Positions 5,477-59,604 of a stretch of DNA of 64,000 nt are shown piece after piece. A model generated the notes under the pieces. It saw only the letters and a list, made by a program, of their open reading frames with translations, searched no databases and was not told where the DNA came from. A program made the translations under genes and the position numbers. The stretch is from contig OX411544.1 in the NCBI GenBank assembly GCA_948146395.1, positions 87,691,632-87,755,631 on the forward strand, read 5' to 3'. Source of the DNA: Fragum whitleyi. Its lineage: Eukaryota; Mollusca; Bivalvia; Cardiida; Cardiidae. Each line of letters begins with the position of its first letter. The first letter of the stretch is position 1.

Positions 5477-6067
5477 TTCTTACTAAGGAATAAGAGGGTG
5501 CACATTTTAACCAGACGGGCATTTCGTTCTCGCCTGTTTTACGGATGGTGTAAAAGTTTACAACAAGTTTGCAAGAATTTAGAATTCCAAGACGAGCTTT
5601 ACGTGCCGTCTGCTGACATAGCCACGTACAATGATACTAACGTCATCATTACACAAGGAAACTTAAAACAATTACAAGTACTCCGCATACTTCCTAAACT
5701 GGCAGTTGAGAGAAAAGTAAAGATTGGAAGAATATGTTGCGGCGTTGACGTATTCGGCGATCAGATTTACGTGACGTGCCATGATAGTCCAGGTAACGGA
5801 GAGGTAAAAGTACTGAGTAAAACAGGCAAACTGCAGAGACGACTTGGCTTTGACAATGATAAATACATGTTTACCAGACCTCTAGCTGTCAAAATAAGTC
5901 GGGATGGTACGGAAATTTACGTTTCCGATTCGGACACCAGTATAGTTACATGTCTGGATCAGAGAGGTCACGTAATTTACAGATATTCCGACGCTGAATT
6001 AAACAGACCTACAGGTTTATTCGTCGATGCAGATGATAACTTGCTGGTGTGTGCTTGGTCGTTTTGA
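5477..6067 (+). pseudogene. NHL-type beta-propeller fragment, TRIM-like C-terminal exon
   Basis: An open frame runs from an in-frame stop just upstream (TGA at 5474-5476) to TGA at 6065-6067. Its first in-frame start-like codon is GTG at 5498, so no convincing eukaryotic start is present and this reads as an internal exon or a fragment. The translation has the blade rhythm of NHL propellers: hydrophobic runs such as GVDVFGDQIYVTC, PLAVKISRDGTEIYVSDSD and LNRPTGLFVDADDNLLVC. In molluscs such propellers are typical C-termini of TRIM/NHL proteins, which act as E3 ligase-like adaptors or RNA-binding scaffolds. No RING, B-box or coiled coil lies nearby. The frame stops right after the third recognisable blade, and the following bases do not continue the domain. 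A degraded gene copy is more likely than an intact gene, but one exon of a gene whose other exons lie outside the window is possible. Confidence 0.55.
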
Positions 6068-9627: not shown

Positions 9628-10057
9628 GAGAGGATCCCTATAAGCGTAGCTTATACTTGGAACCCTATTTTGTTGGTATTATACAAAATTCCGGGGTTCA
9701 GTTTCCTACTCCTCAGAGGGGGTTTGTTTGAGCCCCCGAGACCCCCTGTATCCGCCACAGGTATAAATACTGCAAGTCATGATTTCTGTTGTAAAACATC
9801 TTTTATTTGACGAGGTTACCCGAATATTTATCTGCTAATCATATTTGGACAACGAAAACAACAGATGGTCAATTATGCTAATGGGACAACTACATAACAC
9901 ATAGATAATGCTCAGTGTATAAGACCACACTTTTGAGTTTTCCTAAGAGAACCGTAGTTGATAAAAAGTTCAGGACATACCGTAATTGTCAGTATTATTG
10001 TAGATTTAGGTCAGTCAGTAAAGAATTGCAGTCTGATTCTAACATGCACTCCATGCT
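9628..10057. other. intergenic, nothing recognised
   Basis: No exon or repeat with clear boundaries is seen. A short open frame at 9915-10127 runs into an M1 copy and is not supported. Confidence 0.35.
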
Positions 10058-10470
10058 TACAGTTAATAACATCGTGAAATTGACAATGTGTATGATTTTG
10101 GAATGCTTTACGAATGAAATTGAATGAGTGTGTGGAGCGAGTTTTGAGTGAATGTAATGGGAGATAATCCAATATCGTAAATTTTGTTCAGGATGAACAA
10201 AATTAGCGATATTGATTACATTCCTTTAATGAAATATGCATATAAGTTCAATAGATAGCTTTCTATTTCTTCAAGAACCTATTAGACGCTTACAATTTGA
10301 ATTATGTCGGTGAAATCGTAATTTTTCTCTTTCCAAATCTATTTTGAATGACGTTGTTGGTTCTATATTTTTCATATGGGTTTGAGCATTTTTGAATTGT
10401 TTTTAGAGAGTGTTTGGACTGAATGAATGGAGCGCTGAGTGAGCGATTTAAAATGGTTTTGATTGAAATG
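10058..10470. mobile_element. MITE family M1, copy 3 (right end replaced)
   Basis: It begins TACAGTTAATAACATCGTGA and contains the full M1 body, including the hairpin around 10170-10230 and the block TGAATGGAGCGCTGAGTGAG. The expected right terminus (CAATTTCACGATG..TAACTGTA) is absent, because the sequence passes into a separate palindrome at about 10471. Confidence 0.75.
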
Positions 10471-10658
10471 AATTATAGAATAACAAATTTTTACCGTTGT
10501 TTATTGAAAATTTAACCACGCTTCTGAGTCCTAAGGCTCAATAAATAATCCACGAGAGCTTTAGCTCGAGTGGATTATTCTTGAGCCTTAGAACTCAGAA
10601 GCGTGGTTAAATTTCCAATAAATAACGGTCAGAATTTTTTATTATAATTCTATCATAG
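10471..10658. repeat. 188-bp palindrome interrupting an M1 copy
   Basis: Two arms of about 80-90 bp are near-perfect inverted copies: TTAACCACGCTTCTGAGT...TAAGGCTCAATAAATAATCC against the complementary GGATTATTCTTGAGCCTTAG...ACTCAGAAGCGTGGTTAA. The centre is GAGAGCTTTAGCTC. It could be a foldback MITE inserted into the M1 right end. Confidence 0.75.
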
Positions 10659-11250
10659 CTAAATTTTCACTATTCCATGGGAAATAAATGCGAAGATACC
10701 AAGTCTACAACAACTGCGGATTAGTTTCATTTGATAATGCAAGCTATTCTTTTTCACCAAAGTAAGCGACGGTAAGCAATAATAAGCTCTCGATTCTTTT
10801 AAATTTGACCCTAAATTTGAATAAGAAAAATGAACAAAATTACAAACATAGTTATTCTTAATTCGTTTTTGTTAATATTAGCATACAAACATATGCATCT
10901 ATAACGCTATCTTCAATCCAAAATTTCAAGTGGGCCAGGGTTTTATTTTTCACCGCATCAAGTTAACTTCAGTGGGGGCGTAGGTAAGGGGCAGGATAAA
11001 GCCTAAATGCTAACGGCCAAGAACCTACATGCCTACATGAGAAAGAGTATTTAACAATCAAATAAACTATCAAACGAACTTAACATACCTTATGAATTAA
11101 AAACAATTGCGATGGATTTCTTGTCGATCGACCATCTCCACTTTATTTTCACGATTTCGTTGTTGTGAAGTTAAAACAAACATCAATTCAATGTCATCCT
11201 GGTTATTTATCACATTAGTCTAGGCTGTTATGTAAGAAAATGGGGTCGAT
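10659..11250. other. intergenic, nothing recognised
   Basis: AT-rich DNA between the palindrome and the left end of the Academ-like transposon. No exon is supported. Confidence 0.4.
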
Positions 11251-11408
11251 CGTGACACTCCGGACGAAAGTGCCATTTTTTGCGAGCGGTCAGATATCAC
11301 TTTTAGACAACTTTTGCACTTGGGGTGCCCGACTTGTGAGGCCTGGTTCTCGATTTTTTGAGGTTTAAAAGTTCGGATAGTGTACTATCCGGATACTCTT
11401 CCCTTGAA
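11251..11408. repeat. left terminal inverted repeat of the Academ-like element
   Basis: It runs inward from CGTGACACTCCGGACGAAAG to GTACTATCCGGATACTCTTC. Its reverse complement aligns along the full length with 16985-17142, with substitutions and a few indels. It contains its own small inverted repeat around CGGATAGTGTACTATCCG. Confidence 0.75.
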
Positions 11409-11752
11409 CTTTCGAATATGATCCCAGAAAGCAACTAGCGTAAAAAATTACGTAGTTGTGACGAAATTGAATTCGATTTTTATTTTTCTTAAAGCTAACG
11501 GTTCTATTTCTGCAGAACACTTCCTCTGCAGAGTAGATTTATGGTCATTTCGACTAATAAAGTGCAATTGTAGCGCCCACTCAAATTTTAGGCTGATATC
11601 AACTCCTGTTCCGCTCATAGGAAAGGCATTATCTTGATATCATTTCATATTTAAGTATAACTTGTGTTTGTAAAGTTTTCTATCCATTTTAAAATCCAGC
11701 CTAGGTAGTCTTACCGCAACGTCAAACCATAGATTTCTGAATCTAGGCCGGC

Positions 11753-14700
11753 ATGGATTGGTCAAATTGTATTATATGTGGCAAATCAGATGGGTACTTG
11801 TTAAACCCTTCTGTTAAGCCAAATTGCTTTGAAATATATAACAACTTTCTAAAGATTGTACAAGGCTTTTCTGATATGAAGAAAATGCCTACGTCCATTG
11901 CCATTTCAAACCAGCAAAGTGTAGATGACTTGATCACACATTCTGCTAAATGGCACAAATCTTGCAGGCTCAAATTTTCAGAGTCTAAGCTCTTGCGCAC
12001 GAAAGAGCGTTTTAAAAATATGATTGAAGACGAGTGTCCGTCAGAGAGAAAATCACGCCGGCTTTCTTCAACTGTTACAGAGCAACAGAGAAACTGCATT
12101 TTTTGTAAAGGTTCTGTTGGAACTCTTCATTCTTGTTCCACCTTTAATATGGATGCAAACCTCAGAAATATGGCAACCAAAATGCATGATTTGTCTCTTT
12201 TAAGTAGTATTTCGGGGGGTGATCTTGTTGCTATCGAAGCTATGTACCACAGTAAATGTATGCTGAAGTACAAAAACCGTTTTCGTGCGTTTGAGCGTCA
12301 ATCGGAAAACGTGTCTTCTTCTTGTACTGATTCTACAGAAGCAATGGTTTTCGCCGAATTGATTGATTATATTGAAACTGGTGTTAAAGAGGGTAACTTT
12401 ATCTATAAACTTTCTGAGCTTCACCTTTTGTTTGAAGAGAAATTACGAGTTGTCGGTTCTGGTAAGAATATTAATAAAGGTCGTCTCAAAAACAAAATAC
12501 TAGAAACATTTACCCCAAGTTGTCAGGAACAATCTGATGGTAAAAACATACTTTTAGTTTTCAGCGAAGGTTTAAAATCACTCCTGAAAGAAACTGTTAA
12601 TTCTAATGATTTGAAAACTGAGGCAGTCGCAATTACACGTACCTGCAATTCTATTAGAGCAGAAATGTTTGACAAAGAATTGTTTACTTTTTCTGGTGCC
12701 TTTCCTGAAGATTGTGAAGAAACGTCCGTGCCAGAAAGTCTCAAATCATTAGTGTCGCTACTGTTGTACGGACCAAATATTAAAGATAAAAATCTCAAGA
12801 ACTCACGCTCTTGTCTTTCCATTTGCCAATTGATATTGTTCAATTCGAAAGAAAGTTATGCTCGTAAAAACTTATGTGAATTTCAACGACACTTTAAGTC
12901 GAAAGAGCCACCTTTGCCTCTTTACTTGGCTTTTAAGATTCACACACTCACACGAAGCAAAAAGTTGATAACACAGATGCATGATTTAGGTCTTAGTGTA
13001 AGCTATGCTCGGTTTTCAGAAATCCAAGAAGAAATGACATTTGCTCTTTGTAGAAGGTTTCACGAAGAAAAGGTTGTTTGTCCAACTCAGCTTAGAAAAG
13101 GCATTTTCAGTGTTGGGGCCCTTGACAATATTGACCATAATCCATCTGCAGCCACAGCTCAGGGATCCTTTCATGGAACAAGTATAAGTATCTTTCAGTT
13201 TCCAACAAAAACAAACAAAGGTTTAATTAGAGAACCAACGAAAATTGCCAACGAAAATGAGGCACAGGTGCAATTTAAAACATTACCCGACAGTTACAAA
13301 ATAGTGCCGGCAGTTAACTACAATCTTGACCTTGCAACTGTTCCCCCATCGGTGACAAAAGATGTTACTGGGGATCTTGAAGTTGCAAAGCAACAAGAAA
13401 ATGAGTGGCTGTCACATAGCGCTCTGTTATTAAAACAGGAAACCATAGACAGGGATGCCAAACTTGCATGGGCAGCATATCACGCTTGTCGCCAGGCAGA
13501 GGAAAACAAAGTACCTGGAATTTCCTGCTTGTTACCACTTTTTCATGAAAAAGCTGCAACAGTTGCGATGGTTAAACATGGTATGACTATCATTCGTGAT
13601 ACTACTCAGTTCTGCAACCCTGGGCAGATCCCAGTAATGGCAGTTGATCAACCACTTTTTGCATTAGCCAAACAAGTCCAATGGAAATGGCCAGAAACTC
13701 TCGGAGAGAAAAAGTTTGTTGTAATGCTGGGTGGATTACATATTGAGATGTCTCTATGGCGTATGATAGGAGAGCTTTTGGCTGAATCTGGTTGGACAAA
13801 TGTATTAGCAGAAGCTGAAATAGCTTCTTCGGGAACTTGTGATTCATTTTTGCATGCATCCCATGTAACTAAAACAAGACATGCTCATCAAGTCACTGCT
13901 GTGGCGTTAAATGAGTTAAGACGCGAAGCATTTGAAGCAAGCAAGAATGAATCATTTTCTTCTTGGAAAAGTGAAATGATTCAAAAGTCCCCAGTTTTCA
14001 AGTTTTGGGATTTGATACTTGACATTGAATTACTTGTACTTATATTTGTAAGGTCTCACAGAGAAAACAATTTCAATTTGTATATTGATGCCATGACGGC
14101 TCTTGTCCCTTTGCTATTTGCTCTTGACCATACAAATTATGCACGTTGGATGTCCGTTCACATACGTGACATGAAGTCATTATCAGATGAAGTCCTGCGT
14201 GAATTCAATCAATGTTGGGTGTTCCAAAAGACAAACACTAGATTTTCTTCTATTCCTATTGACCAAGCCCACGAACAAAACAATAAAATGATCAAAAACG
14301 TTGGCGGGGTCGTAGGTTTGACTGAAAAGCCAAATGCATTGAAAAAATGGATGATCTCGGGTCCTGAACAGGCAAGACTTCTCAATGAGTTTGAACAATC
14401 ATCTCCTGATAATTCTGTTGATGCTGCAGCAAGTCACGAAGAAGGGGTTGCAACACAAAAAACGTTTCATTTACAGGTAACCAAACTTTTCGAAACAATC
14501 AAAGCACTTGGGAATCCGTTTATGGAACTATCACCAGAACTTATGACCGTTGATACCCATGATTACGCTGACGACCATGTGAAACAAACATTAGAAGTTA
14601 TTGCAATTAAAGGAAAGGAACAGTACAACAAATTCATCAAAGATGTATTTATTGAGAGATCAATTCCGATTCATGCAACAATAAAGAAAAACAACTTTCC

Positions 14701-16189
14701 TCTCTTCAAGACACCTATTGGCAAGGTAAAAGCTAAAATCAAAGAACAAACTGTTGATCTTAAAAGCGACTATTCTCTTTTTGGGCGATTGTTCATCGCT
14801 TGCCAAGTACGTGAAGGTGATTTAGAAGAGTTCTTTGCACATGAAAACCATTCCTGGCCACCAGCTCTTTCTCATCGGGGTAAGCTACGCCTTCCAAGTA
14901 GTAAGTCGGACCTTCTGGCATGTTTAGGTTCACCATCTTCCGAGGATCCTCCGGTATGTGCTTCAAAAGTATTTGATGGTGCTGTCGTGATACATTCCCT
15001 TGGTAAAGGCGACGCAACTACATTTAAAGACTATGCTGATAATGTGTTCATGCCATGGGTATTCAAACAATTAGAAATCCATAACAGAATTGACATAGTC
15101 TGGGATTCCTACAAACCCGACAGTCTAAAGGAGACTGCAAGAGAAAAAAGAGGTTTAGGATATAGAAGAAAAGTTTCGTCTCAAACAAAATTACCTGCTA
15201 ACTTTATTGGTTTCTTACGTGACCCTAGAAATAAAGCAGAGTTATTTGAATTTCTGAGCGAATGTGTTGAGTCCTTTCCCGATTACGCAGATAAACAGGT
15301 ATTCATTACTAAAGGTGAAAACGTTGTAAATAAAGGAACAGCGGAGCCAATAAATGACTCTGATCACGAAGAAGCCGACACTAGAATGTGTTTACATGTA
15401 CTCGATGCAATTAATCATGGATTTGAATCCATCATGGTTAGTACTGTAGACACTGATGTTGTCGTTATACTTCTCGGGATTTTTTCAAAACTTTTAAACC
15501 ATTCTCCAAAGATCAAAGTCTGGGTTGAATTTGGTAAAGGCAAACACTTGCGATATTACTATCTTAACTCTTTATTCGAGAATCTTGGTCCAAGAATTTC
15601 TAATTCGCTTCCGTTTTTCCATGCAATTACTGGGTGTGATACCACTTCTCAGTTTTCTGGTAAAGGTAAAAAGGCAGGGTGGAAGTCGTGGTCAGCTTTT
15701 CCCGACGTCACCGATGCTTTTTGTATAGAACATCCATTTGTCCCACTTGAAAAGGGTTCGGTGTCATTTTCACTTATAGAGAAATTTGTTTGTGTTCTAT
15801 ATGATCACACTGTTAACCACGGGCAGGTAAACTTGTTACGGCGAGAGCTATTTACTCAAGGAAAATGTGTGAAAATGATGCAAAGTTTACCCCCAACACA
15901 GGATGCACTTCACATGCATGTTAATCGGAGTTTATACCAAGCTAGTGTTTGGGTTAGTTGCCTTCAACCAGAACAAAATCTCCCTTCACCGCAGCTGTTT
16001 GGTTGGAAGAACATTGAAAATACATGGAAACCAAATTGGACAAACTTGCCTGAAGCAGCGAAGAGCTGCAGAGAGCTTATTAAGTGTGGCTGTAAAGCTG
16101 AACCTCTATGCACTAAAAAATGTGCATGTAAAAACCATCAGCTACCATGCACTTCACTTTGTCATTGTAATGGTAATTGCAATCCATAG
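11753..16189 (+). CDS. Academ-like transposase with XPG/FEN-type nuclease signature
   Basis: This 1478-residue ORF has no stop or frameshift and is much the longest in the window. Seen directly: two similar N-terminal modules with C-x2-C...H-x2-C spacing (C6, C9, H68, C71 and C115, C118, H166, C169), probably zinc-binding; a middle region with GLHIEMSLWRM and IPIDQAHEQNNKMIKN, motifs I associate with a family widespread in cnidarian and mollusc genomes; an acidic cluster DHEEADTR (EEAD 1206-1209) followed by TVDTDVVVILLG (DTD 1233-1235), matching the layout of XPG/FEN1 internal-domain metal ligands; and a nine-cysteine tail at 1445-1476 with CXC/tesmin-like spacing (C-x-C-x5-C-x3-C-x-C-x6-C-x3-C-x-C-x3-C). 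Inferred role: DNA cleavage and strand transfer for the surrounding element. The ATG at 11753 is the first in frame and opens directly into the first zinc module. An upstream non-coding exon cannot be excluded. The catalytic assignment is by pattern only. Confidence 0.8.
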   Translation: MDWSNCIICGKSDGYLLNPSVKPNCFEIYNNFLKIVQGFSDMKKMPTSIAISNQQSVDDLITHSAKWHKSCRLKFSESKLLRTKERFKNMIEDECPSERKSRRLSSTVTEQQRNCIFCKGSVGTLHSCSTFNMDANLRNMATKMHDLSLLSSISGGDLVAIEAMYHSKCMLKYKNRFRAFERQSENVSSSCTDSTEAMVFAELIDYIETGVKEGNFIYKLSELHLLFEEKLRVVGSGKNINKGRLKNKILETFTPSCQEQSDGKNILLVFSEGLKSLLKETVNSNDLKTEAVAITRTCNSIRAEMFDKELFTFSGAFPEDCEETSVPESLKSLVSLLLYGPNIKDKNLKNSRSCLSICQLILFNSKESYARKNLCEFQRHFKSKEPPLPLYLAFKIHTLTRSKKLITQMHDLGLSVSYARFSEIQEEMTFALCRRFHEEKVVCPTQLRKGIFSVGALDNIDHNPSAATAQGSFHGTSISIFQFPTKTNKGLIREPTKIANENEAQVQFKTLPDSYKIVPAVNYNLDLATVPPSVTKDVTGDLEVAKQQENEWLSHSALLLKQETIDRDAKLAWAAYHACRQAEENKVPGISCLLPLFHEKAATVAMVKHGMTIIRDTTQFCNPGQIPVMAVDQPLFALAKQVQWKWPETLGEKKFVVMLGGLHIEMSLWRMIGELLAESGWTNVLAEAEIASSGTCDSFLHASHVTKTRHAHQVTAVALNELRREAFEASKNESFSSWKSEMIQKSPVFKFWDLILDIELLVLIFVRSHRENNFNLYIDAMTALVPLLFALDHTNYARWMSVHIRDMKSLSDEVLREFNQCWVFQKTNTRFSSIPIDQAHEQNNKMIKNVGGVVGLTEKPNALKKWMISGPEQARLLNEFEQSSPDNSVDAAASHEEGVATQKTFHLQVTKLFETIKALGNPFMELSPELMTVDTHDYADDHVKQTLEVIAIKGKEQYNKFIKDVFIERSIPIHATIKKNNFPLFKTPIGKVKAKIKEQTVDLKSDYSLFGRLFIACQVREGDLEEFFAHENHSWPPALSHRGKLRLPSSKSDLLACLGSPSSEDPPVCASKVFDGAVVIHSLGKGDATTFKDYADNVFMPWVFKQLEIHNRIDIVWDSYKPDSLKETAREKRGLGYRRKVSSQTKLPANFIGFLRDPRNKAELFEFLSECVESFPDYADKQVFITKGENVVNKGTAEPINDSDHEEADTRMCLHVLDAINHGFESIMVSTVDTDVVVILLGIFSKLLNHSPKIKVWVEFGKGKHLRYYYLNSLFENLGPRISNSLPFFHAITGCDTTSQFSGKGKKAGWKSWSAFPDVTDAFCIEHPFVPLEKGSVSFSLIEKFVCVLYDHTVNHGQVNLLRRELFTQGKCVKMMQSLPPTQDALHMHVNRSLYQASVWVSCLQPEQNLPSPQLFGWKNIENTWKPNWTNLPEAAKSCRELIKCGCKAEPLCTKKCACKNHQLPCTSLCHCNGNCNP

Positions 16190-16631
16190 TTTTCTTTTAT
16201 GTTTCTTGATGACATTTAAGTTATCAGTAGCAATTATACCGGTCGTGACTCCAGTTTGGGGAAGGGAGGGGGCAATTATATAACCAAAAATTTTGTCCTT
16301 ACTAATCATTTTTTATCGTATCGGAAACAAGTTCTTACTACTTAGATTAATCCCTCGCACCGTGGCATTCTGTTCGATTTCTAATTTTAACCATATAATT
16401 TTACTATATTTCATGGTCAATAGCTATTAGAAATGTCAAGACCGACCTCTAAAATACGATAGGCTAATAATAAGGTTTTAATTCAAGTTAATTTCTACCA
16501 AAAGCATACATCTCAATATATTTATATTTCAAAAAAATCTATTTTTAAGCTTTCCTCTTTCGGTTACCCTCTTTTAACGGGCGCAGAAAAGTTAGAGATA
16601 GTTTATTAACGGCTAGCACGGCGGAACTTGA

Positions 16632-16760
16632 AGAAAGGAGAATAATATCCGGATAACACGTCTGTCCGAAATTAAAATTAACGATTTCTTAGTCTTAAAG
16701 GTTCGTGAGCCCGGGCACCCCATGTGCAAATTCAAGCTCATAACAGTCCGTAATCCAGAA
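16632..16760. repeat. second, subterminal copy of the right-end repeat
   Basis: The segment with TATCCGGATAACACGTCTGT and CGGGCACCCCATGTGCAAAT is a diverged direct copy of the inner two thirds of the right TIR, about 352 bp upstream of it. No equivalent second copy is visible inside the left end. Confidence 0.65.
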
Positions 16761-16984
16761 AAAAATAATACTTAGTTTATCCAATAAGAAAAAAATTGAC
16801 TCGGGTGTAAATATAGCAATAATTGCAAATATCTAAAAATCAAAGGTGCTTTACAAAATGTAATAAAAATTGTTATTGTAACAATCTAACATGCAATTTC
16901 GAAATATAGTGTTTTATTCTAAGAGATTCGATAGATTTTCGTTACAATGAATGAAAAAATTTCGTAATCTACTAATTTTATGTT

Positions 16985-17142
16985 TTAAAGCAAGAGTATC
17001 CGGATAGTACATCTATCCGAATTGTAAATGGCCGATTTCGAGTCTCATAGGCTCTAAAATCCGGGCACCCCTAATGCAAATTTATGCATATGGAAGCCTC
17101 TAACTATGGACAAAAAATTACACTTTCGTCCGACTTGTCACG
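16985..17142. repeat. right terminal inverted repeat of the Academ-like element
   Basis: It runs from TAAAGCAAGAGTATCCGGAT to CACTTTCGTCCGACTTGTCACG. It is the inverted counterpart of 11251-11408 and has the same length. Confidence 0.75.
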
Positions 17143-17902
17143 ATTTTTTACCTAAGCGACTCTACTAATAGATTACCACTAGATTCAAAGTTTCTGTCTC
17201 TAAAAATACTCCTCAGTCGGGTAAAGTACAATTTTTAATCTATCAATCCATCCGGATAAAGTAAACTTGTGTAAACAATACTCGTCATAATTTTAAACTA
17301 CGTCATGAACTACGTCATCGATAAAGTATAATTCGCCCAAGATATTTTGAGAGTCTTGCAAAGTATAATACCCCTAAACTTATTTGAGAGCCTTTAAATA
17401 TTTTCGTAATTTTATAGGCAAAATTGAGTGGGGCGTTGGGGGGGGGGGGGGGGGGTATCAGGTTGCCTTGCCAATATTCTTTACGTTATGTGACATCAAT
17501 AAAGATTTGTACATGGGCGGAATGGAACAGCCACTCGGAACTTTTTCGACCATTAGCGCCCATTTAACCACGACGCAACTGCATGCTTTGTATAGACATA
17601 AAATCACGTGCCATGATAGAATGTCAATTTCACGATGTAACTAACTGTAATAATTGGTAATTTTGGAAAGTTGACAAAGACTGATCGATCTGCTTACGTT
17701 CTAATCATTTTTGTATAAAATATGCCAGTTTATGAAATGAGTCGTAAATATATCAATTTTTGTAAATATAATTATCTTAACCAAAAATGTATTACATTTA
17801 GATAAATGAATGCAGAATTTCTGAACTGTATGTGTCTGTAAATGGAGACCGATAAATTGTTATGTGTTTTACATTATTTTCTAGAACTAAAATTTGTCGA
17901 CT
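17143..17902. other. intergenic with poly-G tract and solo M1 end
   Basis: A G-run of about 19 bases lies at 17437-17456. At 17621-17650 the sequence TGTCAATTTCACGATGTAAC followed by TAACTGTAA matches one M1 terminus, but no second end is nearby, so it is a remnant. This stretch lies just 3' of receptor gene copy A. Confidence 0.45.
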
Positions 17903-19559
17903 TCATTTACTATTTCGAGTCGTAGTGTTTAAACCGCTAGACCTATTCGGTTTCATGTCTTGTCCTAATATGAACGATTTATACAAATGATAAACCCTCT
18001 TGTTAATTAAAAATGCTGTCATCAGGAAAACACCGTTCAGACCATTTAAACAAGTAAATATATAGTTGAACACTTCATTTTTTGTAAATATGTATGGAAT
18101 TATAGTGAGCCAAGTCAATCCAGTCAAAACCGAAAGTTTGATGTAAATAAGGAATGTTTTTCTGTTTTTGTTAGACCGTAGTTCCACATTAATCCCATTT
18201 CCAATCCTATACACGGCAATTCCAAATAAAATGATGTTACATATCACTGATAGTAATGCTGGTAAGGTTATAGTCAACCCTAAACAGATTGGTCTTGATA
18301 TCCAACACAATATATTTATAACCAAAATCTTCCTTTCCCGACAACATAACAGATACAACGACATTCACTGCTATAAAACAAATAGAGATAACTGTCACAA
18401 AAGTCACGTATTTCAGTGAAGTCTTTATAAAGCATTTATCATTCATGGGAATGGGCTGGTGAAAAACGCGGAACATGTGGAAAGAACAAACAAGATACCA
18501 TAACATTACAGATAACCAGAAAAAATGGAGCAGACCGCCCATGAATAAACAAATCAATTCAGAATATCCGTGAAATATGCCAAATATAAACAGGACATGT
18601 CCAAAACATATGAATACAGAAAGCATAATGTTATTTATACCTGGCTGTGTTTGCAGTGGTTTTAGAATTACGTACGTTATGAAAATAAAAAAGCTTGAAC
18701 AAATTGACAAAATTGACGTAGTCAAAGTAAGGTAACCAAGAAACTCAGATTTTAGTTCCTCCAGGTTAGAATTATCAAAATAAAAATAAAAATCTTGTTG
18801 AACGAATGATGAATATTCTGCAAAATCATGAACGCAAACTTTGATTATTGGCTCAGGTGTATCGTTCGAGTTATTTTTGATCGAGTCAATAAAATCGAAC
18901 GATTTTTTAGGTAAAGTAAACCCGATGTCATTGAAATAGAGATCGTTGTCAATAAATGTCACATTGAAATACCGTAACTCAACCTCTATCCATAAACAAT
19001 ACATAAATTGCGTCAAAACTGTCAAGCGGCCATCCATAGAACAAAGTAAATCAGAATCATCATTATTATACAAACTTGATTGTGTCCATCCGATGTCGGG
19101 TAGATAAAAAGCATGCAGTGTATTGTTCTCGAAAGGATCACGAAATCGCAAGTACTCTATTATTTCATCTTGGAACGTAACATCAAATGGTATAACAATT
19201 ACTAAGGAAGCGTTTAACCCCACATCTTTGTCAAGTAAAGTGACATAAAAAGGTTGTTTAAAAAACTCGACCAAGCCTCTACATATTGAAATATTATATA
19301 TAAACTTTAAATGAAATATGAAACTCGTTTCCTTTGTCCAATGAATATCCCAGGCTGATAAGGCATGGACTGCAATTATAGTACTCTCATTTATCTCATT
19401 CTCAACTACGTGGAGAATGTCTTTAACGTTATGTTCGGAAATATCTACCATAGGGTGTAGAACCAAGAAAGCTTCAAGGCATAAATTGTCGACATCTGGT
19501 TTACATTCTCCATCTATGTTTTTGAACCCCTTTTCACAGTTTGTAACAAAGCATGTATC
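17903..19559 (-). pseudogene. receptor gene copy A, exon 3: stalk plus 7TM, frameshifted
   Basis: The acceptor is AG at 19561-19560, and the exon opens in phase 0 with codons for DTCFVTNC. It encodes the membrane-proximal ectodomain and a family-B (secretin/adhesion-type) seven-helix domain: helix 1 follows EFLGYLTLTTS, helix 2 has QPGINNIMLS, helix 3 has FWLSVMLWYLVCSFHMF. Against copy B (33651-35483) there is an 11-nt deletion at about 18302-18323, inside the extracellular loop 2 segment that in copy B reads GGGLCWIS. The frame then reaches a stop at 18237-18239. Helices 5-7 (LGLTITLPALLSV, YIKLSVLTGLTWLTIIPYIF, FTCLNGLNGVFLMTAF) persist in another frame to a stop at 17903. The exon is 1657 nt, and adding 11 restores a multiple of three. 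No GPS motif is seen before helix 1. This copy is probably non-functional as a receptor unless the shift is an assembly error. Confidence 0.8.
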
Positions 19560-19782
19560 CTGTAAGAAAGGAAACGCATAATTAAGTTAGAAACCTCAAG
19601 TTATGTTTATTAAATTCACATCCTGCTAATCTTAAATTATGTCCAAATAAATCATGAGGGCTCGAGTATTTTCCCACAATAATCAGCAAGCGCAGTCTGA
19701 TCCTTGTCTTTATCGTCTGCCTAAACTCTGCTACATCAGATATATGCTGTGAACAGAAGATTAAAAGTTAAGTTAAGGGGAA

Positions 19783-22282: not shown

Positions 22283-22529
22283 TATGACCCGCCACGCGAT
22301 CAGGGAACATCTCGGCTATGCGTAAAGCGTCAACGGATTGCGCAGGCTGATTAAGCTTGAAGATTTTTACATTGTTCTAATTTCCTAAATCTAGAATGGT
22401 CATTCTTTATTACTTTATACGTATTTTTTTAACGCGACTACCATACAATCTCCACTTGAACAAATATATTTTGTCTCGAATTCATTTTTCGGGGTTTCGA
22501 GATGGCCCCTTTCGCGTGACGGGTCACAA
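22283..22529. mobile_element. MITE family M4, copy 2, next to a splice donor
   Basis: The left end ATGACCCGCCACGCGATCAG and the right end CCCCTTTCGCGTGACGGGTCA are inverted copies. The right end stops 12 bp from the exon 2 donor of receptor gene copy A, so transcription of that gene on the minus strand runs from exon 2 almost straight into the MITE. Confidence 0.65.
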
Positions 22530-22541
22530 ATTTATTCTTAC

Positions 22542-23248
22542 TAGGCTAGGAATGAACTCTGTTCCAACAGGACAAACGTTTTGTCTTGTTTCTGCATTCT
22601 TCACGGGTCTTTTAACGTTGTTAAAGTCAAAAAGGAGCGTAAACGACGGTAGGGGGCGTGTTTCATCAAATTTTGACGTGAAGCAATCATTGGACGGAGT
22701 TTCTGTCGCCACGTTACACATATAGCAGAAAATGTTTCTATAACTCCGGTCAAAAAATGGAGCTCTAAAGAGCTCACATCCCGCAGCAATATACGGGTCA
22801 TAATTTTGCCAAAGTCCGGTCTGATTACAAGTATCTATTAGATCTGAACATTCTTCAGTCACCATCTCATGCGGGGGAATTAAATACAAATCACAATCAA
22901 CAGCGACTAACACATCGTTAATCAGAGTTTTTGGTGATATTTTCTTAATTGGTTCTGACGTACATCCGAGTTGCACATTCCATGACGTCAGAGAATCTGG
23001 TTCCTCGACATTACATTCTGCACAATACTGGTTCCTGTATGTATCCCCGGAAATATTGCTGGAAAATGGGACGAAGAAATCCAGTCCGGTAAGGGGATCA
23101 TTTCTACATTTTTGTATGATTTCTGGATTGGTATAATTTGTTGGACATTTTGTAATCATCAGATAGCTACTCCATGCCGAGGTTTTCAGCCGTCCAGGAA
23201 CACATCTATACAATCCCCCTTGTGGAATATTTGAGACTGTTAATTTAT
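22542..23248 (-). CDS. receptor gene copy A, exon 2: Cys-rich ectodomain
   Basis: The acceptor is CTTCAG ending at 23249 and the donor is GTAAG from 22541. It is 707 nt, which with the single base carried over from exon 1 keeps the frame open throughout. It encodes the extracellular Cys-rich part: GGLYRCVPGR, SSYLMITKCP, then two similar modules built around YRNQYCAECN and YRNIFCYMCN, ending CPVGTEFIPSL. The same order occurs in copy B. Such ectodomains with CAECN-like motifs are familiar from mollusc family-B receptor expansions; the ligand is unknown. Confidence 0.75.
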
Positions 23249-23795
23249 CTGAAGAAGAGAGTTATTTTTTATAGTCATTGAAGTATTATACTTAAATGAT
23301 ACATAAACAATATGTATGAATATGCGAAGCGGATTCATATATGAGTGTGATTAGGCTTTAGCCCATATCTCAATAAAACACAATATTTTTTATCTCTTGT
23401 TCATGTTTTGTAATGTCATATCGTGAATAAAAAATGTGACCCGTCTCGCGAAAAGGAACCATCTGGGTTTTGCACAAAGTGCTTATTTTCTGAATCTAAA
23501 ATTATCAATCTACCTTCCCTTGAAAGCATGTTTGAATCCCGAACCCTGCTTGACCTATGCTGGACATAATCTCTCTTTCAAATATTAATCTTGCAGAGTT
23601 ACCAGATGGTCCATTTTGGCGTGACGTGTAACAAATGTAGAGATTTCTCCATAACCAGTAAGACATAGATTTTTAACAACTTTTTGTCCGGTATTACGTC
23701 AAAGCTGAGTACTAAAAGCTGTTATCTTTGAGGAATGACTTGCTTTCAGCCAATCAGAATACACGAAGCTTTATAGACACAACAAAAACTATTAC
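23249..23795 (-). other. intron 1 of receptor gene copy A (absent from copy B)
   Basis: GTAATAG at the donor and CTTCTTCAG at the acceptor, phase 1, 547 bp. It separates CCPDILS from DKLTVSN. In copy B the same protein segment is encoded without interruption. An M4 MITE occupies 23435-23634. Confidence 0.7.
23435..23634. mobile_element. MITE family M4, copy 3
   Basis: It starts TGTGACCCGTCTCGCGAAAA and ends CCATTTTGGCGTGACGTGTAACA, an imperfect inverted repeat with CCATCTGG and CCAGATGG just inside. It is about 200 bp and non-coding. Confidence 0.7.
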
Positions 23796-28539: not shown

Positions 28540-28976
28540 TACAGTTAGTTTCATCGTGCAATTGACATTTAACTCAATCAAAACCATTCTAAATCGCTCA
28601 CTCAGCGCTCTATTCATTCATTCCAGACACTTACTCAAACCATTCAAAAACGCCCCAAACTCACTGAAAAACATAACAACTTCGTTCAAAATAAAAATAG
28701 CTGGGAAGAAAATCTGGATTTCACTTATTTAATTGAAATTGTTAGCGTATAATAGGTTCTTGAAGAAATATGGAGCTATCTATCGAACTTGTACGCATAT
28801 TTTATTAAAGGGAGGTAATCTATATTGCTAATTTTGTTCATCCTGAACAAAATTTGCAATACTGGATTAACTCCCGTTATATGCACTCAAAAGTCGCTCC
28901 ACACATTCATTCAATTTCATTCCTAAATCATTCCATAATCATTCACCTTGTCAATTTCACGATGTTGTTAACTGTA
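28540..28976. mobile_element. MITE family M1, copy 7 (full length)
   Basis: It starts TACAGTTAGTTTCATCGTGC and ends CAATTTCACGATGTTGTTAACTGTA. It includes CACTCAGCGCTC, TAGGTTCTTGAAGAAATA, and the central hairpin AAAGGGAGGTAATC...AATATTG / CAATACTGGATTAACTCCC. It is 437 bp, with both ends present. Confidence 0.8.
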
Positions 28977-33650: not shown

Positions 33651-35483
33651 TCATTTTTCCTCTCGTGCAACATAAAGATCAAGTCTCTCAGATCTAATTT
33701 CAGACTCGAACCGTTCATTTACATGTACCTGGGATGAACTTTTATCATTATAGGAACTGTTATTTTCGTGGTGTATTTCTTCAGCAGTTATATTCCTGAT
33801 GCTTTCCGTTGAAGTATTTTCATTATCCTGTCGAAGAGATGCATGTTTTCGGAAAGAAGTCTCGGTTGTACGCCTACTGCCTGTACTTTCCTGTTTAAAA
33901 TCAGTCCCCAAAATTAATGATTTATATAACAGGAAAACTCTTTTGTTTAGTAGAAAAGCCGTCATTAGAAAAACGCCATTAAGACCATTCAAACAGGTGA
34001 AGACAATATTAAACAATTCAATTCTCGTGAATATGTAAGGTATTACTGTGAGCCAAGTGATTCCAGTTAAAACTGAGAGCTTGATGTAAATGAGGAATGT
34101 TTGTCTGTTTTTGTTTGATCGGATATCTGCCTTTATTCCCGTACTTATTTTATAGACTGCAATAGCAAACAAGGCGATGCTACAAATTACTGATATAAAG
34201 GCAGGTAATGTTATAGTCAGGCCTAAGAGAAGGGGATCAGATATCCAACATAAACCACCACCAGAATACGTATAGCCAAAATCTTTACTTTCTGATGAAA
34301 TGGTCGAGATAGCAACATTAATTGCAATTAAACAAAGAGATGTTCCCGTTACAAACATTGTATATTTCAGTGTAGTCGTTATGACGCTACTATCCGCTTT
34401 TAGTACAGATACATGGAAAACACGGAATGTATGAAAAGAGCAGACTAGGTACCAAAGCATGACAGATAACCAGAGGAAATGAACAAGACCGCCTATAAAC
34501 AGACAGACCACCGAAGGATTTCCATTAAACGAGCTAAAGAGAAACAGAACGTGTCCAAGAAATATAGAAATTGACAGCATCATGTTGTTTATACCGGGTT
34601 GTGTCCGTAAAACTTTAAAAATTATGTATGTAAGAAATGTTAAAATACAGGATACTATCGACAACACTGATGTAGCTATTGTAAGGTAGCCAATATACTC
34701 AGAATTTCTTTCTTCTGATTTTAGTTCTTGTTGCCTCGATGTTGTATAAGGTGCGATATCATTAACACAAATTTTGATTACGGAATTATTCGAACCACTT
34801 TGACTATCTTGCTCGGTGACGATGTATGAATAATCAGGTATCATAATACGTGATTCCTGAAAGAGGAGGCCATCATTATTAAAGGACAAATTAAAATCTT
34901 GTAATGCAACCTCTATCCATACACAACCTGTGAATTGATTCATGACTTGTAGTGTTGTATTCCTGTTACATAGTGACAGAATATCCTTATTAATGAAATA
35001 CCTTTCATCAAACAATCCAATCTCAGAGAGTTCAAAAGCATGAGCAGTTTCGTTTTCTTCAACCTGTTCAGAACTTATGTAAGAAGTTACTTTATTTTCT
35101 AATGAAACACGAAACGGAATATTAAAGTGTGATGTTGTGTTTAACTCTATGTTGCAACTTAAAATAAAGATATTAAATGGTTGTCTTGAAAAATCTATTA
35201 ATAAATTTGCAATTGTTAAATTAAATACAAACTTTACATGAAAAACGAAATTCATCTTGAAATCCGCGTGAACATCCCAGGTAAGATCATCCATTGGCAA
35301 TTGAGAGGTTTCTCTTATCGCAGTTACAACGGCGTCACGTATCTGTTGAGTTCCTTGACACGAGATATTTACCACAGGTTGTAGCACTAGAAAAGCGTCG
35401 ACGCACGTGTTTTCAACTGGTGGCCTACATTCCCCATCTGTGAGGTTTAGCCCCATCTCACAATTAGTCACATAGCACGCATT
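33651..35483 (-). CDS. receptor gene copy B, exon 2: stalk, 7TM domain and cytoplasmic tail
   Basis: The acceptor is TTTGCAG ending at 35484, and the exon opens in phase 0 with NACYVTNCEMG. It is 1833 nt including the stop. It encodes about 260 residues of membrane-proximal ectodomain and then a family-B seven-helix domain. Helices lie near residues 591-616, 625-646, 653-681, 700-722, 745-772, 789-812 and 817-842 of the predicted 937-aa protein. Family features seen: a Cys at the top of helix 3 (VVCLFIGG) and its partner in extracellular loop 2 (GGGLCWIS), FLWLSVMLWYLVCSFH in helix 3, and QTFLIYIKLSVLTGITWL in helix 6. No GPS autoproteolysis motif is seen before helix 1, unlike classical adhesion receptors. 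The tail is Ser/Thr-rich. Expected role: a surface G-protein-coupled receptor with unknown ligand, of Methuselah-like or adhesion-like type. It is intact, unlike copy A. Confidence 0.85.
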   Translation of the reverse strand, partial: NACYVTNCEMGLNLTDGECRPPVENTCVDAFLVLQPVVNISCQGTQQIRDAVVTAIRETSQLPMDDLTWDVHADFKMNFVFHVKFVFNLTIANLLIDFSRQPFNIFILSCNIELNTTSHFNIPFRVSLENKVTSYISSEQVEENETAHAFELSEIGLFDERYFINKDILSLCNRNTTLQVMNQFTGCVWIEVALQDFNLSFNNDGLLFQESRIMIPDYSYIVTEQDSQSGSNNSVIKICVNDIAPYTTSRQQELKSEERNSEYIGYLTIATSVLSIVSCILTFLTYIIFKVLRTQPGINNMMLSISIFLGHVLFLFSSFNGNPSVVCLFIGGLVHFLWLSVMLWYLVCSFHTFRVFHVSVLKADSSVITTTLKYTMFVTGTSLCLIAINVAISTISSESKDFGYTYSGGGLCWISDPLLLGLTITLPAFISVICSIALFAIAVYKISTGIKADIRSNKNRQTFLIYIKLSVLTGITWLTVIPYIFTRIELFNIVFTCLNGLNGVFLMTAFLLNKRVFLLYKSLILGTDFKQESTGSRRTTETSFRKHASLRQDNENTSTESIRNITAEEIHHENNSSYNDKSSSQVHVNERFESEIRSERLDLYVAREEK

Positions 35484-36742
35484 CTGCAAAGAACAACAAA
35501 TGGCCCTGTACTTGACATTTACAACATTTTGAAACATATATATGAGGCGCCAACATTCAGTAGACTAAACAGTCCTGCAGTCCAAAAGAGGATTTGCCGT
35601 CCGCCTAAAGACATAACTGGACCTTATTTTCTACAAAGAGAAAAGAAAGACCCTGGACAGATTGTGCAGATGCACAGGCTGGTCATGGTCTTTGCTTTGC
35701 GCGATTTGAAATTGTTTGAAACGCACACTCGGGCTTAAACAATATTTAATTCTTCATTATTCTTAAGTTGTACGTTTAAGTGTTGTTATAGACATTCATA
35801 AAAGGACGAACAATTTCAACATACTGGATCAATATTAGGTGACGCGGCGGACCATCGAGCCCATATTTCCAACCTGATCCAAATTTAACGAAGAAATCTG
35901 AAAGGGAAGTCCCTAAACATCCTTTTTGTGAGGTTTGGATTAGTATAACTCTGTCCAATGGTTTCAGAGAAGAAAGTCATTTTAATACTTCAAATTATGG
36001 GCCCACATTTTGTTGATGCGATAGGTCGTAAACCCACCCATCAATCCTAATTAGAATTTCACGAAGAAATGTAAAAGAGCATGTTTTAGCATCATTTATA
36101 TGAAGTTTTGTTGAATTCTGACCAGTGGCTTCAGAGAAGATAATTTTATATATCTCATCATATGTGACCATTTTTCGGTTTCCCCACAGCCCAGGAGCCA
36201 ATTTTTATCAACATGATCAGACATTAACGAAGAAATCGGAAAGATTTGATTTTTGAACATTAGGTCAGGAGAAGAAGATTTGATTAAATATTTTATCATA
36301 TGGAGCTATGAACACTTCCAGCTTTGGGACTTCTGCATCCCGGTGCAAAAGCTCCGCTTCTGCTTTTTTCCGTAGCAATTTAAGGTTGAATAAGATTTCC
36401 CCTCCAAAATATGCACAATTCTTCAACGTCAACAATAGAAACCTACGTATCAATGGGCAAGTGAAAAATCCATAAGAAAAGCATGCGTATATTCTTAACT
36501 ATTAACTATTAACTATAAGTTAGTTTTTCTAGAAAAAAACAAGAAAGGATTCTTTAACTTTTTTGCGTACCCGTTCACGCGAAAAATTCTTCGTATGTGT
36601 TGGCGTGTAAACTAACAGGAATCACAGAGTTTTTATTTAGAAATTCCGGGATATGGCCTTTGCATCGGGGTGCAGAAAAACAAAATTTGGAATATGGGCC
36701 CGTTTTTCGGTGACGCGATAGCCAAATGCAATTTATCAGTCC

Positions 36743-37183
36743 TACAGTTAACAAAATCGTGAAATTGACAAGGTGAATGATTTGGAATGATTTGGGAATG
36801 AAATTGAACTAATGTGTGGAGCGACTTTTGAGTGAATTTAACGAGAGGTAATTCAGTATTGCAAATTTTGTTAAGGATGAACAAAATTAACAATATTGAT
36901 TACCTCCCTTTAATAAAATATGCATACAAGTTCGATAGAAAGCTCCATTTTTCTCCAAAAACCTATTATACGCCAACAATTTCAACTAAATCAGTGAAAT
37001 CCAGATTTTTTTCCCGGCCATTTTTTTTTTGAACGAAGTTGTTGTTATATGTTTTTCAGTGAGTTGGGGGCGTTTTTGAATGATTTGAGTGAGTGTCTGG
37101 AATGAATAAATTGAGCGCTGAGTGAGCAATTTAGAATGGCTTTGGTTGAGTTAAATGTCAATTTCACGATGTAACAAACTGTA
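36743..37183. mobile_element. MITE family M1, copy 10 (full length, flanking repeat)
   Basis: It starts TACAGTTAACAAAATCGTGA and ends CAATTTCACGATGTAACAAACTGTA. A perfect 12-bp direct repeat, ATTTATCAGTCC, lies immediately outside both ends (36731-36742 and 37184-37195) and looks like a target duplication. The central hairpin lies at about 36840-36912. Confidence 0.85.
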
Positions 37184-38543: not shown

Positions 38544-38936
38544 TACGGTCAATCACATCGTGAAATTTACCCTCATATCGATCTAAACTATTCAAAACCG
38601 TTTGCTCAGCGTTCTAATCATTCATCAAACACTCTTTAAAGCCATAAAAATCAAAACGTCTGAAATCGTTCAAAATGATCACAACTTCAACCTTATCTGA
38701 TATCCATTCAATGAATTATTCAATACGCCTCGAAAACATTCAACCTTTCAATAAAATGGACAAAATAATTGCAAGATTGTAATTGGTTGGTGTTGAATTT
38801 TGAGGGTCTGATTTGTTCGTGAAGACACAAAAAATTGAAAATCATTCAAAGCTCACTCATCACTCTCATACAGTTCCACTACAAAAATATCTCCAAAATC
38901 AATTAAATTAACAATTTCACGATTTAACTGACTGTA
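38544..38936. mobile_element. MITE family M1, copy 11, next to a splice donor
   Basis: It starts TACGGTCAATCACATCGTGA and ends CAATTTCACGATTTAACTGACTGTA. The interior is diverged and has lost the hairpin. The right end lies 21 bp from the exon 1 donor of receptor gene copy B. Confidence 0.65.
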
Positions 38937-38957
38937 CAGGTAAATTGAATTCCATAC

Positions 38958-39938
38958 CAGTAAGCCAATGAATACAGTTTCTCTTGGACATGTTTCTTCT
39001 CTAGTCTCCATTTTAGCCACGTCAGCAACATCGTTAAAGTCAAAAAGAAGTGCAAACGATGACGGCAGATATTTGTCAGTTGTTACAGTTCTACAATCGT
39101 TAGCGGGAATTTCCGTATTTAAATTGCAAATGTGACAAAAAATATTTCTATACTCATTCTTATAAAATGGTGCTCTATAGAGCTCACACCGAGTAGCAAT
39201 CTCCAAATCATAATTTATCCATAGTCCTGTCTGATTACAAGTGTCGATTAAATCTCTACATTTTTCAAACTTCAGCCCTGGCGGAGGAACCAAGTATAAG
39301 TCACAATCATCAGACGCTAGAACATCGTTAATCAGTGTGACTGGAGATGTTTTCTTTATTGGCGCGGAACTGCAACCTAGTTGTATTTTCCATGAAGTAA
39401 GAGAATCTGGTTCCTCAAAATTACATTCTGCGCAATATTGGTTCCTGTATGTGTCACCGGAAGCATTGTTGGACACAGGGATAAAGATGTCTAGTCCAGA
39501 TTTAGGATCCCCCTGACATTTTTGGACGACTTCCATATTTGAAAAGTTTGTAAGACATTTTGTAATCATTAAATATTTGTTCCACGCCTGTGATTTCATC
39601 CTGCCAACTACACATCTATATAATCCTCCTGCTGGAATGTTTAAATCTGAGTCTGTTTTGTTACTTAACAACATATCCGGGCAACAATCACCGCGCCTGA
39701 AACAATTTTCACCACATTCACAGCGACTACAACAGCGGCCGAGCCGCATCACTGGAAGGTCATCTTTGTTGAAATAATCGTTTAGTATTTCCGTATTACA
39801 GACATCTATGTTCACACAAGATGCATTTTTACGATACGCTATATATTCGTCCAAGACATCTCCATTTGTTGAAATGACACGAGATGCAACAAAAATAATA
39901 AAATATATTGATAACGGATAAAACGTTTTAAATTCCAT
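38958..39938 (-). CDS. receptor gene copy B, exon 1: signal peptide, SMB-like cluster and Cys-rich ectodomain
   Basis: The chosen start is ATG at 39938 (MEFKTF), which puts a hydrophobic signal peptide (LSIYFIIFVASRVIS) at the N-terminus; a longer frame from 40040 adds 34 residues not matched by copy A. The exon is 981 nt (327 codons) and ends at GTATGG. In order: the SMB-like cluster CCSRCECGENCFRRGDCCPD at residues 69-88, GGLYRCVVGRMKSQAWNKYL, then two Cys modules around YRNQYCAECN and YRNIFCHICN, ending CPRETVFIGLL. Copy A splits this same region into two exons. Spliced to 33651-35483 it predicts a 937-aa receptor. The SMB-like and CAECN-type modules probably bind a ligand or matrix partner; that is inference. 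Confidence 0.85.
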
Positions 39939-40182
39939 TTTATTTTTTAGTAGTACAAGCAATATCGTGAAATTGAATAATAAGTCCGTACTTTTTCCGA
40001 GTGAAACAAACGCGAAAAGGCAATTGACAAACCAGAACAATAACGACGGAGAAGTAAAAAAAATTATTTTATGAACTAGACTTTTATAAGGGCTGATGGC
40101 AGATAAAATACTTAAAATTTGTTTGTGTTTGTTCTTGATCAGTAATAATAGAGAGCATCTGATTTACAAACCAATAAGGCAT

Positions 40183-42398: not shown

Positions 42399-42830
42399 AA
42401 TTACAACTTCTTGAAATTTACAAGGTGAACGATTTTGAATGATTTAGGTTGAATGTATGTGTAGCGAGTTTTGAGTGAAATTTAAGAAAGGTAATCCAAT
42501 ATCGCTAATTTTGATCAAGATGAACAAAATAAGCACTATGTATTACCTCCCTTTAATAAAATATGCTTAAAAGTACTTTAAGTAGCTTCCTCTTCTTCAA
42601 AAACCAATCAGACGCTTAACATGTCATTTATGACAGTGAAATTGCGATTTGCTTCTCGCTTTATTCATTTTGAAGGTACATTGTAGTTGTTGATCTTATA
42701 TTTTTTTAGTAATTTTGAGCGTTTTTGAATGGTTTGGGTGAGTTTTTGGAATGAATGAATGGAGCGCTGAGTGGGCGGTTTAGAACATTTTGATCTGAAT
42801 GAGTGTCAATTTCAAGATGTTTTAACTGTA
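42399..42830. mobile_element. MITE family M1, copy 13
   Basis: The left end CAATTACAACTTCTTGAAATTTACA is degraded; the right end TGTCAATTTCAAGATGTTTTAACTGTA is clear. Body blocks, the hairpin (GATGAACAAAATAAGC) and TGGAGCGCTGAGTGGGC are in order. Confidence 0.75.
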
Positions 42831-43328
42831 TGTCGTTTTTGTCCGCTGTTCATAGTTCTCGTTCATTGTTGTACATACTCTTGCAACGCATTTATGTATG
42901 TTCTCAGAACATGTACTATTCAAAGCAGGATTTTGTTTTGGATTCTCATAGCTCAAAAGGCAATCGGGCTAATTTGCTATGATGTTCACTTGATTACGAT
43001 AAATTTGGACTTGGCAGATCAAACTTTTAGTCTGAAATTAAGTACATTCTCTTAATAATTTGCTCCTCTTTCAGAAGTAGCCTTAAGGTTAAGATCACCA
43101 TCAAAGTCTTTAGCCTACTACCTAGAGATTCAAAACAGGCATAGGGGCATTAGATCCCTCGAATCTCATGGCGGGGTCATTCTTCAGAACCTTCCCATTC
43201 GGTGAAAGTTTCTCTAAAATAGATGGAGGAAACGTGCTTGTTCCTGAAGAGAAGCATAATATCAACATACACTGACAATATGCGTGTTGGTATATGTCAA
43301 GGACTATTCTGTGAAAGTTTCATGAAAA
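42831..43328. other. intergenic, nothing recognised
   Basis: No exon or repeat boundary is supported. Confidence 0.35.
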
Positions 43329-45744: not shown

Positions 45745-47436
45745 ACAAGAGGGCCATAGTGGCCCTAAATCGCTCACTTGAATGAACAGTCATAAATTGT
45801 TTAAAGTAGATTTAGAAAGGATAATGAGTTCTTACCAAATTTCAGGTCAATTGGGCAAAAAATGATGCCTCTACACTGCTTTCAAGGTTTTTCTAAGATT
45901 TGACCCTGTGACCTCATTTTTGACCCCACTTGACCCAATTTCAAACTTGACCTAGATTTCATCAAGATGATCATTCTGACCAATTTTCAGGTTGATCGGG
46001 GCTTCTAGAGTGTCTACAAGGTTTTTCTAATATTTGACCCTGTGACCTCATATTTGACCCCATTTGACCCAATTGCAAACTTGTCCCAGATTTCATCAAG
46101 ACAATCATTCTGACCAAATTTCAGGTTGATTGGACAATAAATATGGCTTCCAGAGTGTCTACAAGGTTTTTCTAAGATTTGACCCTGTGACCTCATTTTT
46201 GACCCCACTTGACCCAATTTTAACTTGTCTGAGATTTTATCAAGACAATCATTCTGACCAAATTTCAGGTTGATTGGGCAAAAAATGTGGCCTAGAGAGT
46301 GTCTACAAGGTTTTTCTAAGATTTGACCCCGTGACCTCATTTCTGACCCCATTTGACCCAATTGCGAACTTGTCCCAGATTTCATCAAGACAATCATTCT
46401 GACCAAATTTTAGGATTATTGGCAATAAATATGGCTTCTAGAGTGTCTACAAGGTTTTTCAAAGATTTGACCATGTGACCTCATTTATGACCCCATTTGA
46501 CCCAATCGCGAATTTGTCCAAGATTTTATTAAGACAATTATTCTGACCAAATTTCAGGTTGATTGGGCAAAAAATATGGCCTCTAGAGTGCATACAAGGT
46601 TTTTTCTAAGATTTGACCCTGTGACCTCATTTTTAACCTCACTTGACCCAATTTCAAACTTGTCCGAGATTTTATCAAGACAATCATTCAAGCTAAATTT
46701 CAGGTTGATCGGGCAAAAAATATGGCCTCCAGAGTGCATACAAGGTTTTTCTAAGATTTGACCCAATGACCTAGTTTTTGACCCCACTTGACCCAATTTC
46801 AAACTTATCCGAGATTTTATCAAGACAATCATTCTGACCAAATTTCAGGTTGATTGGGAAAAAACATGTGGCCTCTAGAGTGCATAAAAGGTTTTTCTAA
46901 GATTTGGCCCTGTGACATAGTTTTTGACCCCACTTGACCCAATTTTGAACTTGTCCGAGATTTCATCAAGACAATCATTCTGACCAAATTTCAGGTTGAT
47001 TGGACAAACAATTTGGCCTCTAGAGTGCATACAAGGTTTTTCTAAGATTTGACCCCGTGACCTAGTTTTTGACCCCACTTGACCCAATTTCAAATTGTCC
47101 GAGATTTTATCAAGACAATCATTCTGACCAAATTTCAGGTTAATTGGGCAAAACATGTGGCTCTCAGAGTGCATACAAGGTTTTTCTAAGATTTGACCCC
47201 ATGAGCTAGTTTTTGACCCCACTTGACCCAATTTCGAACTTGTCCGAGATTTTATCAAGACAATCATTCTGACCAAATTTCAGGTTGATTGGGCAAAAAA
47301 TATGGCCTCTAGAGTGCATACAAGGTAAATGTTGACGACACACGACGGACGACACACGACGGACGACGAACGACGGACGACGGACATCCACCTAACCACA
47401 AAAGCTCACCTTGAGCACTTCGTGCTCAGGTGAGCT
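45745..47436 (+). mobile_element. nested pearl-like element with 145-bp satellite
   Basis: It has a short head ACAAGAGGGCCATAGTGGCC, a tandem array, a GACGACACACGACGG microsatellite (47335-47390) and a terminal hairpin at 47403-47436 (AGCTCACCTTGAGCA / TGCTCAGGTGAGCT). It sits inside the neighbouring array between AAAATTGAAAA and AGGCTGACTG, which read on continuously if it is removed. Confidence 0.7.
45884..47330. repeat. 145-bp tandem satellite, about ten units
   Basis: The phrase AAGGTTTTTCTAAGATTTGA recurs at 45884, 46018, 46163, 46307, 46451, 46596, 46742, 46888, 47033 and 47177, with a final AAGG at 47322; spacing is 134 once and then 144-146. Each unit carries several TGACCC/TGACCT words. 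Minus-strand open frames across the array are a by-product of the repeat and are not genes. Confidence 0.9.
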
Positions 47437-59165: not shown

Positions 59166-59604
59166 AACAGTAAACAACATGGTGAAATTGACAAGTTGAA
59201 TGATTTTTGAATGATTATGGAATGAATTTGATTGAGTATGTGGAGCGAGTTTTGAGTAAAATGAAAGGGAGGTAGTCCAATGTCGCTAATTTTGTTCGGG
59301 AAGAACATAATAAGCGATAAAGATAACCTCCCTTTAGTTAAATTTGCATACAAGCTTTATAGATAGCTTCCTATTTCTTCAAGAACCTACTACACGCTTA
59401 CAATTTGAATTACGTTAATTAACTCGCGATTTTTCCTATTCAAATTTATTTTAAATGACGTTGTTGGTTATATATTTTAAATAGGTTTGAGCCTTTTTAA
59501 ATGGTTTGAGTGAGTGTTTGGAATGAATGAATGGAGCGCTGATTGAGCGGTTTAGAATAGTTTTTATTGAGGTGAACGTCAATTTCACGATGTTATTAAC
59601 TGTA
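59166..59604. mobile_element. MITE family M1, copy 14 (full length)
   Basis: ACAGTAAACAACATGGTGAAATTGACA at the left and CAATTTCACGATGTTATTAACTGTA at the right. The central hairpin (AAAGGGAGGTAGTC...AATTTTGTTCG / GATAACCTCCCTTT) and TGAATGGAGCGCTGATTGAG are present. Confidence 0.8.

Follow-up and report, generated by a model that had tools for sequence, protein, structure and literature searches.

In a 64-kb stretch of the genome of the bivalve Fragum whitleyi (contig OX411544.1; hereafter the window, to whose full length all window counts refer), the segment 11251..17142 on the forward strand is very probably a DNA transposon, intact and autonomous, that belongs to AcademX, the Academ lineage bearing a nuclease. 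We count it as a new member of this already known lineage. The assignment to Academ is well supported by the predicted domain architecture, not by a reference tree, and this architecture bears out the original prediction of an "Academ-like" element: a DDE core and an XPG/FEN1-like nuclease, enclosed by terminal inverted repeats (TIRs) in a unit of about 5.9 kb. Both TIRs and an uninterrupted open reading frame (ORF) are present, in support of the earlier claim that the element is structurally complete. The copy is apparently a complete element of the cut-and-paste type that looks young and undamaged, and we infer that it was likely recently mobile.

The 158-bp arms proposed originally (11251..11408 on the + strand and 16985..17142 on the – strand) fit the inverted ends that we computed. 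The region 11249-11408 is 69.5% identical to the inverted region 16984-17144 over 164 columns (E 2e-14), and the end regions reached a local alignment score of 129, whereas none of 200 single-base shuffles scored above 66. Together with a flank scan, these repeats place the outer ends of the whole element (+ strand) to within 1-2 nt. After viewing a three-way alignment of both ends with an internal end-like set, we picked by eye three blocks, termed modules A, B and C. They occupy positions 11251-11282, 11313-11331 and 11371-11400 in the left TIR and, in the order C, B, A, positions ~16992-17022, 17062-17080 and 17111-17142 in the right one. Left and right ends agree at 27 of 32 positions in the outermost module A, at 17 of 19 in B and at 29 of 31 in C, whereas the spacers are unconserved (9/30 and 14/39). 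Module C of both ends contains a dyad of CGGATAG and CTATCCG, spaced as CGGATAG-N4-CTATCCG in the left one. The modules are putative transposase-binding sites. Since the differences are concentrated in the spacers and the modules are kept, the TIR divergence of 30% says little about age, and we rejected it as an age sign.

The internal set (16641..16773, – strand) has the orientation of the right end, with which it shares 68.9% identity by blastn. Its modules C (23/31 versus the left and 24/31 versus the right end) and B (18/19 and 16/19) are kept; module A is degenerate (17/35 and 19/35). The motif TTTGCANNNGGGGTGCCCG, which was taken from the ends, occurs at exactly three sites in the window, all within these three end sets, and was absent from 100 shuffles. 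As the right end also shares its second spacer with the internal set (25/40), the two look like related duplicates rather than independent ends. A pattern search with module B matched six viral contigs, which we judge to be chance matches arising from the size of the collection, and a pattern search with module C gave no match. No tandem repeats were found within 10000-18500. With the ends shifted by a few bases, the flank scan revealed an exact 4-bp repeat, CGAT, at 11247-11250 and 17141-17144, and three cases of exact 3-bp repeats (GTC, CGA and GAT). Taking CGAT as the target-site duplication would place the right end at 17140 (element 11251-17140); both candidate duplications, CGAT and GAT, require an asymmetry of the ends of 1-2 nt.

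The stop-free ORF of 1478 codons described earlier was confirmed as a single frame at 11753..16189 (+), which starts with an ATG in a context (GGCATGG) that we take to be favourable. No second copy of the encoded 1478-residue transposase was detected in the window by tblastn. In the databases, 275 proteins match residues 400-1478 at E≤0.001, the best with 64% identity. Details were taken from the best 120 of these 275, a listing from which the window's own protein is absent. Eighty-one of the 120 are at least 1400 amino acids long, and for 97 the longest contig is shorter than 8.5 kb. Named sources among the matches listed include Haliotis rubra, Capitella teleta and three fishes. No relatives were confirmed in the genome-contig and viral-contig collections searched. 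For an alignment of 33 sequences, we chose 32 of the 120 listed homologues and added the window copy.

Based on this alignment and on structure models, four regions can be distinguished in the protein (all + strand). At the N-terminus, (near-)invariant columns form two putative zinc motifs (11768..12259; C6 C9 H68 C71 and C115 C118 H166 C169). Residues 330-985 (12740..14707) presumably form a DDE/RNase-H-like transposase core, as indicated by conserved columns, a structure model (predicted local distance difference test score, pLDDT, 88.2) and fold matches with moderate Z. The candidate catalytic triad comprises D458 (13124), D632 (13646) and E841 (14273), and the invariant columns include D458, N459, D461, D632, H663 and E841. 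Residues 1050-1413 (14900..15991) are predicted to be a FEN1/EXO1/XPG-like nuclease fused to the transposase, a prediction based on structure and obtained without a sequence match. Eight acidic residues of this domain (D1075, D1114, D1118, E1207, D1209, D1233, D1235 and D1296) are invariant across the 33 members, a pattern that we take to match that of FEN1/EXO1/XPG. The domain resembles these 5'-nucleases in fold but is part of a transposase, and it shows 9-16% identity in the FEN1, EXO1 and XPG/Rad2 structure matches. Finally, (near-)invariant columns define a CXC-like cluster of nine cysteines (C1445-C1476; 16085..16180), to which the Pfam family TCR matches in one of the 33 members, at E 0.93 only. 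Other Pfam matches of the ORF were weak (DUF6589, E 0.0025, below the cut-off; DUF4020, E 0.069); DUF6589 was matched by 14 of the 33 members at E≤1, the best at 2.2e-6. A sequence search of the PDB gave no match to the ORF and one chance-like match to the family profile (E 0.45).

The AcademX lineage of the Academ superfamily reportedly goes back to Kojima in 2020. We take its nuclease to be of the XPG type. According to the passages available from one study, AcademX is a nuclease lineage with duplications of 3-4 bp and AcademH a helicase lineage with duplications of 9-10 bp (PMC10045372). Our element is like AcademX in its combination of a DDE transposase with a nuclease and in its TIRs, but differs by its third, internal end set and in that its duplication of 3-4 bp is a candidate. 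With AcademH it shares the superfamily and the DDE core, whereas its ORF carries a predicted nuclease where AcademH has a helicase. No helicase was present among the Pfam matches of the main ORF (E≤10), to which the search was confined, or among the 15 families matched by the 33 members (E≤1). Excerpts of a second study describe mollusc Academ elements as almost limited to bivalves, with 100 curated consensuses of 5565 bp on average, a length close to the ~5.9 kb found here, and a few Academ ORFs in Capitella (PMC10294476). The relatives listed here extend beyond bivalves and Capitella to an abalone and fishes. In insects, a recently active and horizontally transferred Academ element is reported (Zhang et al. 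2016, by its title, and a passage of PMC5704228); the likeness to our element would lie in recent activity, and the hosts differ. We found no literature on DUF6589 and, judging by titles, none on Academ together with an XPG nuclease. Nor did the titles and passages seen contain a description of an Academ layout with three-module ends and a second, internal right end.

The genomic context provides further information on the origin of this copy. A repeat of ~440 bp at 10053-10472 breaks off near 10472 and seems to restart near 17620 (17620-17649). It has inverted ends (TACAGTTAA...), and the window contains four further long copies of it (28540-28976, 36743-37183, 42403-42831 and 59167-59604). 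Joining the flanks restores the sequence of the repeat except for about three extra bases, and from such sequence comparison it was probably split by an insertion of DNA carrying the Academ element. The right piece is only ~30 bp long (E 3e-5 to 5e-4 versus single copies); because of this length, and because it corresponds to the repeat's own terminal repeat, it may be the stray end of another copy. If the repeat was split, the inserted DNA is larger than the Academ element. At its left edge lies a 181-bp foldback (10470-10650) with ~86% self-complementarity. A short inverted pair, TTCTATCATAGC at 10648-10659 and GCCATGATAGAA at 17610-17621, matches at 11 of 12 bases and may delimit a second element that carries the Academ. 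The simplest order of events would be that a second element of ~1.1 kb, with the foldback adjoining, entered the ~440-bp repeat and that the Academ then inserted into it. An insertion within the split repeat makes a fixed host gene unlikely, but does not thereby prove the Academ's own termini.

We also estimated how far the copy has decayed. Where at least 93% of the other sequences agree on a column, it departs at 4 of 238 positions, and the other 32 members at 1-31 of 238-252. Neutral change was simulated on the present ORF in 500 runs per level; indels, where added, had an assumed rate of 0.1 times the substitution rate. Four or fewer conserved-site changes occurred in 40.6% of the runs at 1% neutral change, in 2.4% at 2% and in 0/500 at 3%. 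Considering stops alone, the ORF was still open in 115, 26 and 4 of 500 runs at 1%, 2% and 3%, respectively; with the assumed indels, it stayed open in 6% of the runs at 0.5% and in 0/500 at 1%. Because simulated ORFs decay beyond these levels, neutral change should be below ~2% (below ~1% with the assumed indel rate), and a value this low points to a young copy or to one that selection maintained until recently. The earlier claim of recent activity or purifying selection thus gains indirect support from the nearly undecayed ORF and from the probable position of the element within inserted DNA. A dead or silenced copy, inactivated only recently and with an ORF open by chance, is unlikely but deserves consideration: the open ORFs at 1% change with stops alone would allow it, whereas the runs with indels and the low counts at 2%, both for stop-free ORFs and for conserved sites, argue against it. 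The intact ORF and its purifying-selection-like conservation could also suit a domesticated Academ transposase that selection holds at this site as a host gene. We regard this as highly improbable, as both terminal repeats are retained, the segment probably lies within the DNA splitting the ~440-bp repeat, and relatives are numerous, with many clusters among the matches listed holding several members.

Another explanation concerns the extent of the element: the mobile unit could be larger (10648-17621), with TTCTATCATAGC and GCCATGATAGAA as outer repeats and the 158-bp repeats in a subterminal position. The outer pair indeed borders the split repeat on the right and the foldback on the left. 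However, the flanks between this pair and the Academ ends scored only 40, compared with a shuffle mean of 54.9 and a maximum of 80, and have no sequence in common beyond the 12 bp. Moreover, GCCATGATA is found twice more in the window (5778 and 60665), the known length of Academ elements is better matched by 5.9 kb, and an Academ nested in a second element of ~1.1 kb is simpler, so that we consider the larger unit quite unlikely. A further alternative is that the element belongs to a different superfamily (P, hAT or Transib-like, for example) and acquired a nuclease. Like Transib/RAG1, the P element and Hermes (hAT), our protein has a predicted RNase-H core in which a helical insert precedes the E, and its core fold resembles the P element, Transib and Hermes structures. 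But identity to these cores is low (6-10%), and neither the ORF nor the family gave a Pfam or PDB sequence match to P element, hAT or Transib. To our knowledge, these transposases carry no nuclease domain. Here the nuclease acids are invariant throughout the alignment, and the passages available describe one Academ lineage as bearing a nuclease (PMC10045372), which makes an origin outside Academ very improbable.

For the Academ transposon proposed here, one protein would bind the repeated modules in both ends via its N-terminal zinc motifs, perhaps assisted by the C-terminal cysteine cluster. The DDE core would then cut and join the element ends, and the FEN1/XPG-like 5'-nuclease domain would trim or process strands, either at excision or during gap repair. 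We know of no settled account of the cooperation between DDE transposase and flap-type nuclease within one protein, and Academ copies that are intact and autonomous and whose end modules can be recognised would be useful for testing it. The internal right end and the modular ends could mean that the element is mobilised as two forms, or that the extra set serves as a regulatory or enhancer site, an idea that we hold to be doubtful. If mobile, the element may be generating variation in the host genome at present.

Several other features were observed in the window. Just right of the element is a run of 18 G (17438-17455), the only G run of at least 10 on the given strand. Two receptor stretches, at 17903-19586 and 33651-35564 (–), form a paralogous pair. 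The second is one frame of 637 codons and the first shifts frame around 18237-18364, suggesting that the receptor copy adjoining the element may be broken. The receptor ORF has two database matches, one at 42% and one, from Patella caerulea, at 34%; both relatives of the second stretch carry PF00002. Upstream of the two receptor stretches are paralogous cysteine-rich stretches (22524-23261 and 38853-40163, –), which together with them are possibly parts of one tandemly duplicated gene. An ORF of 196 codons at 5477-6067 resembles, by eye, an NHL-repeat protein, and a tandem array at 45829-47326 consists of units of ~145 bp whose copies are ~82-88% alike.
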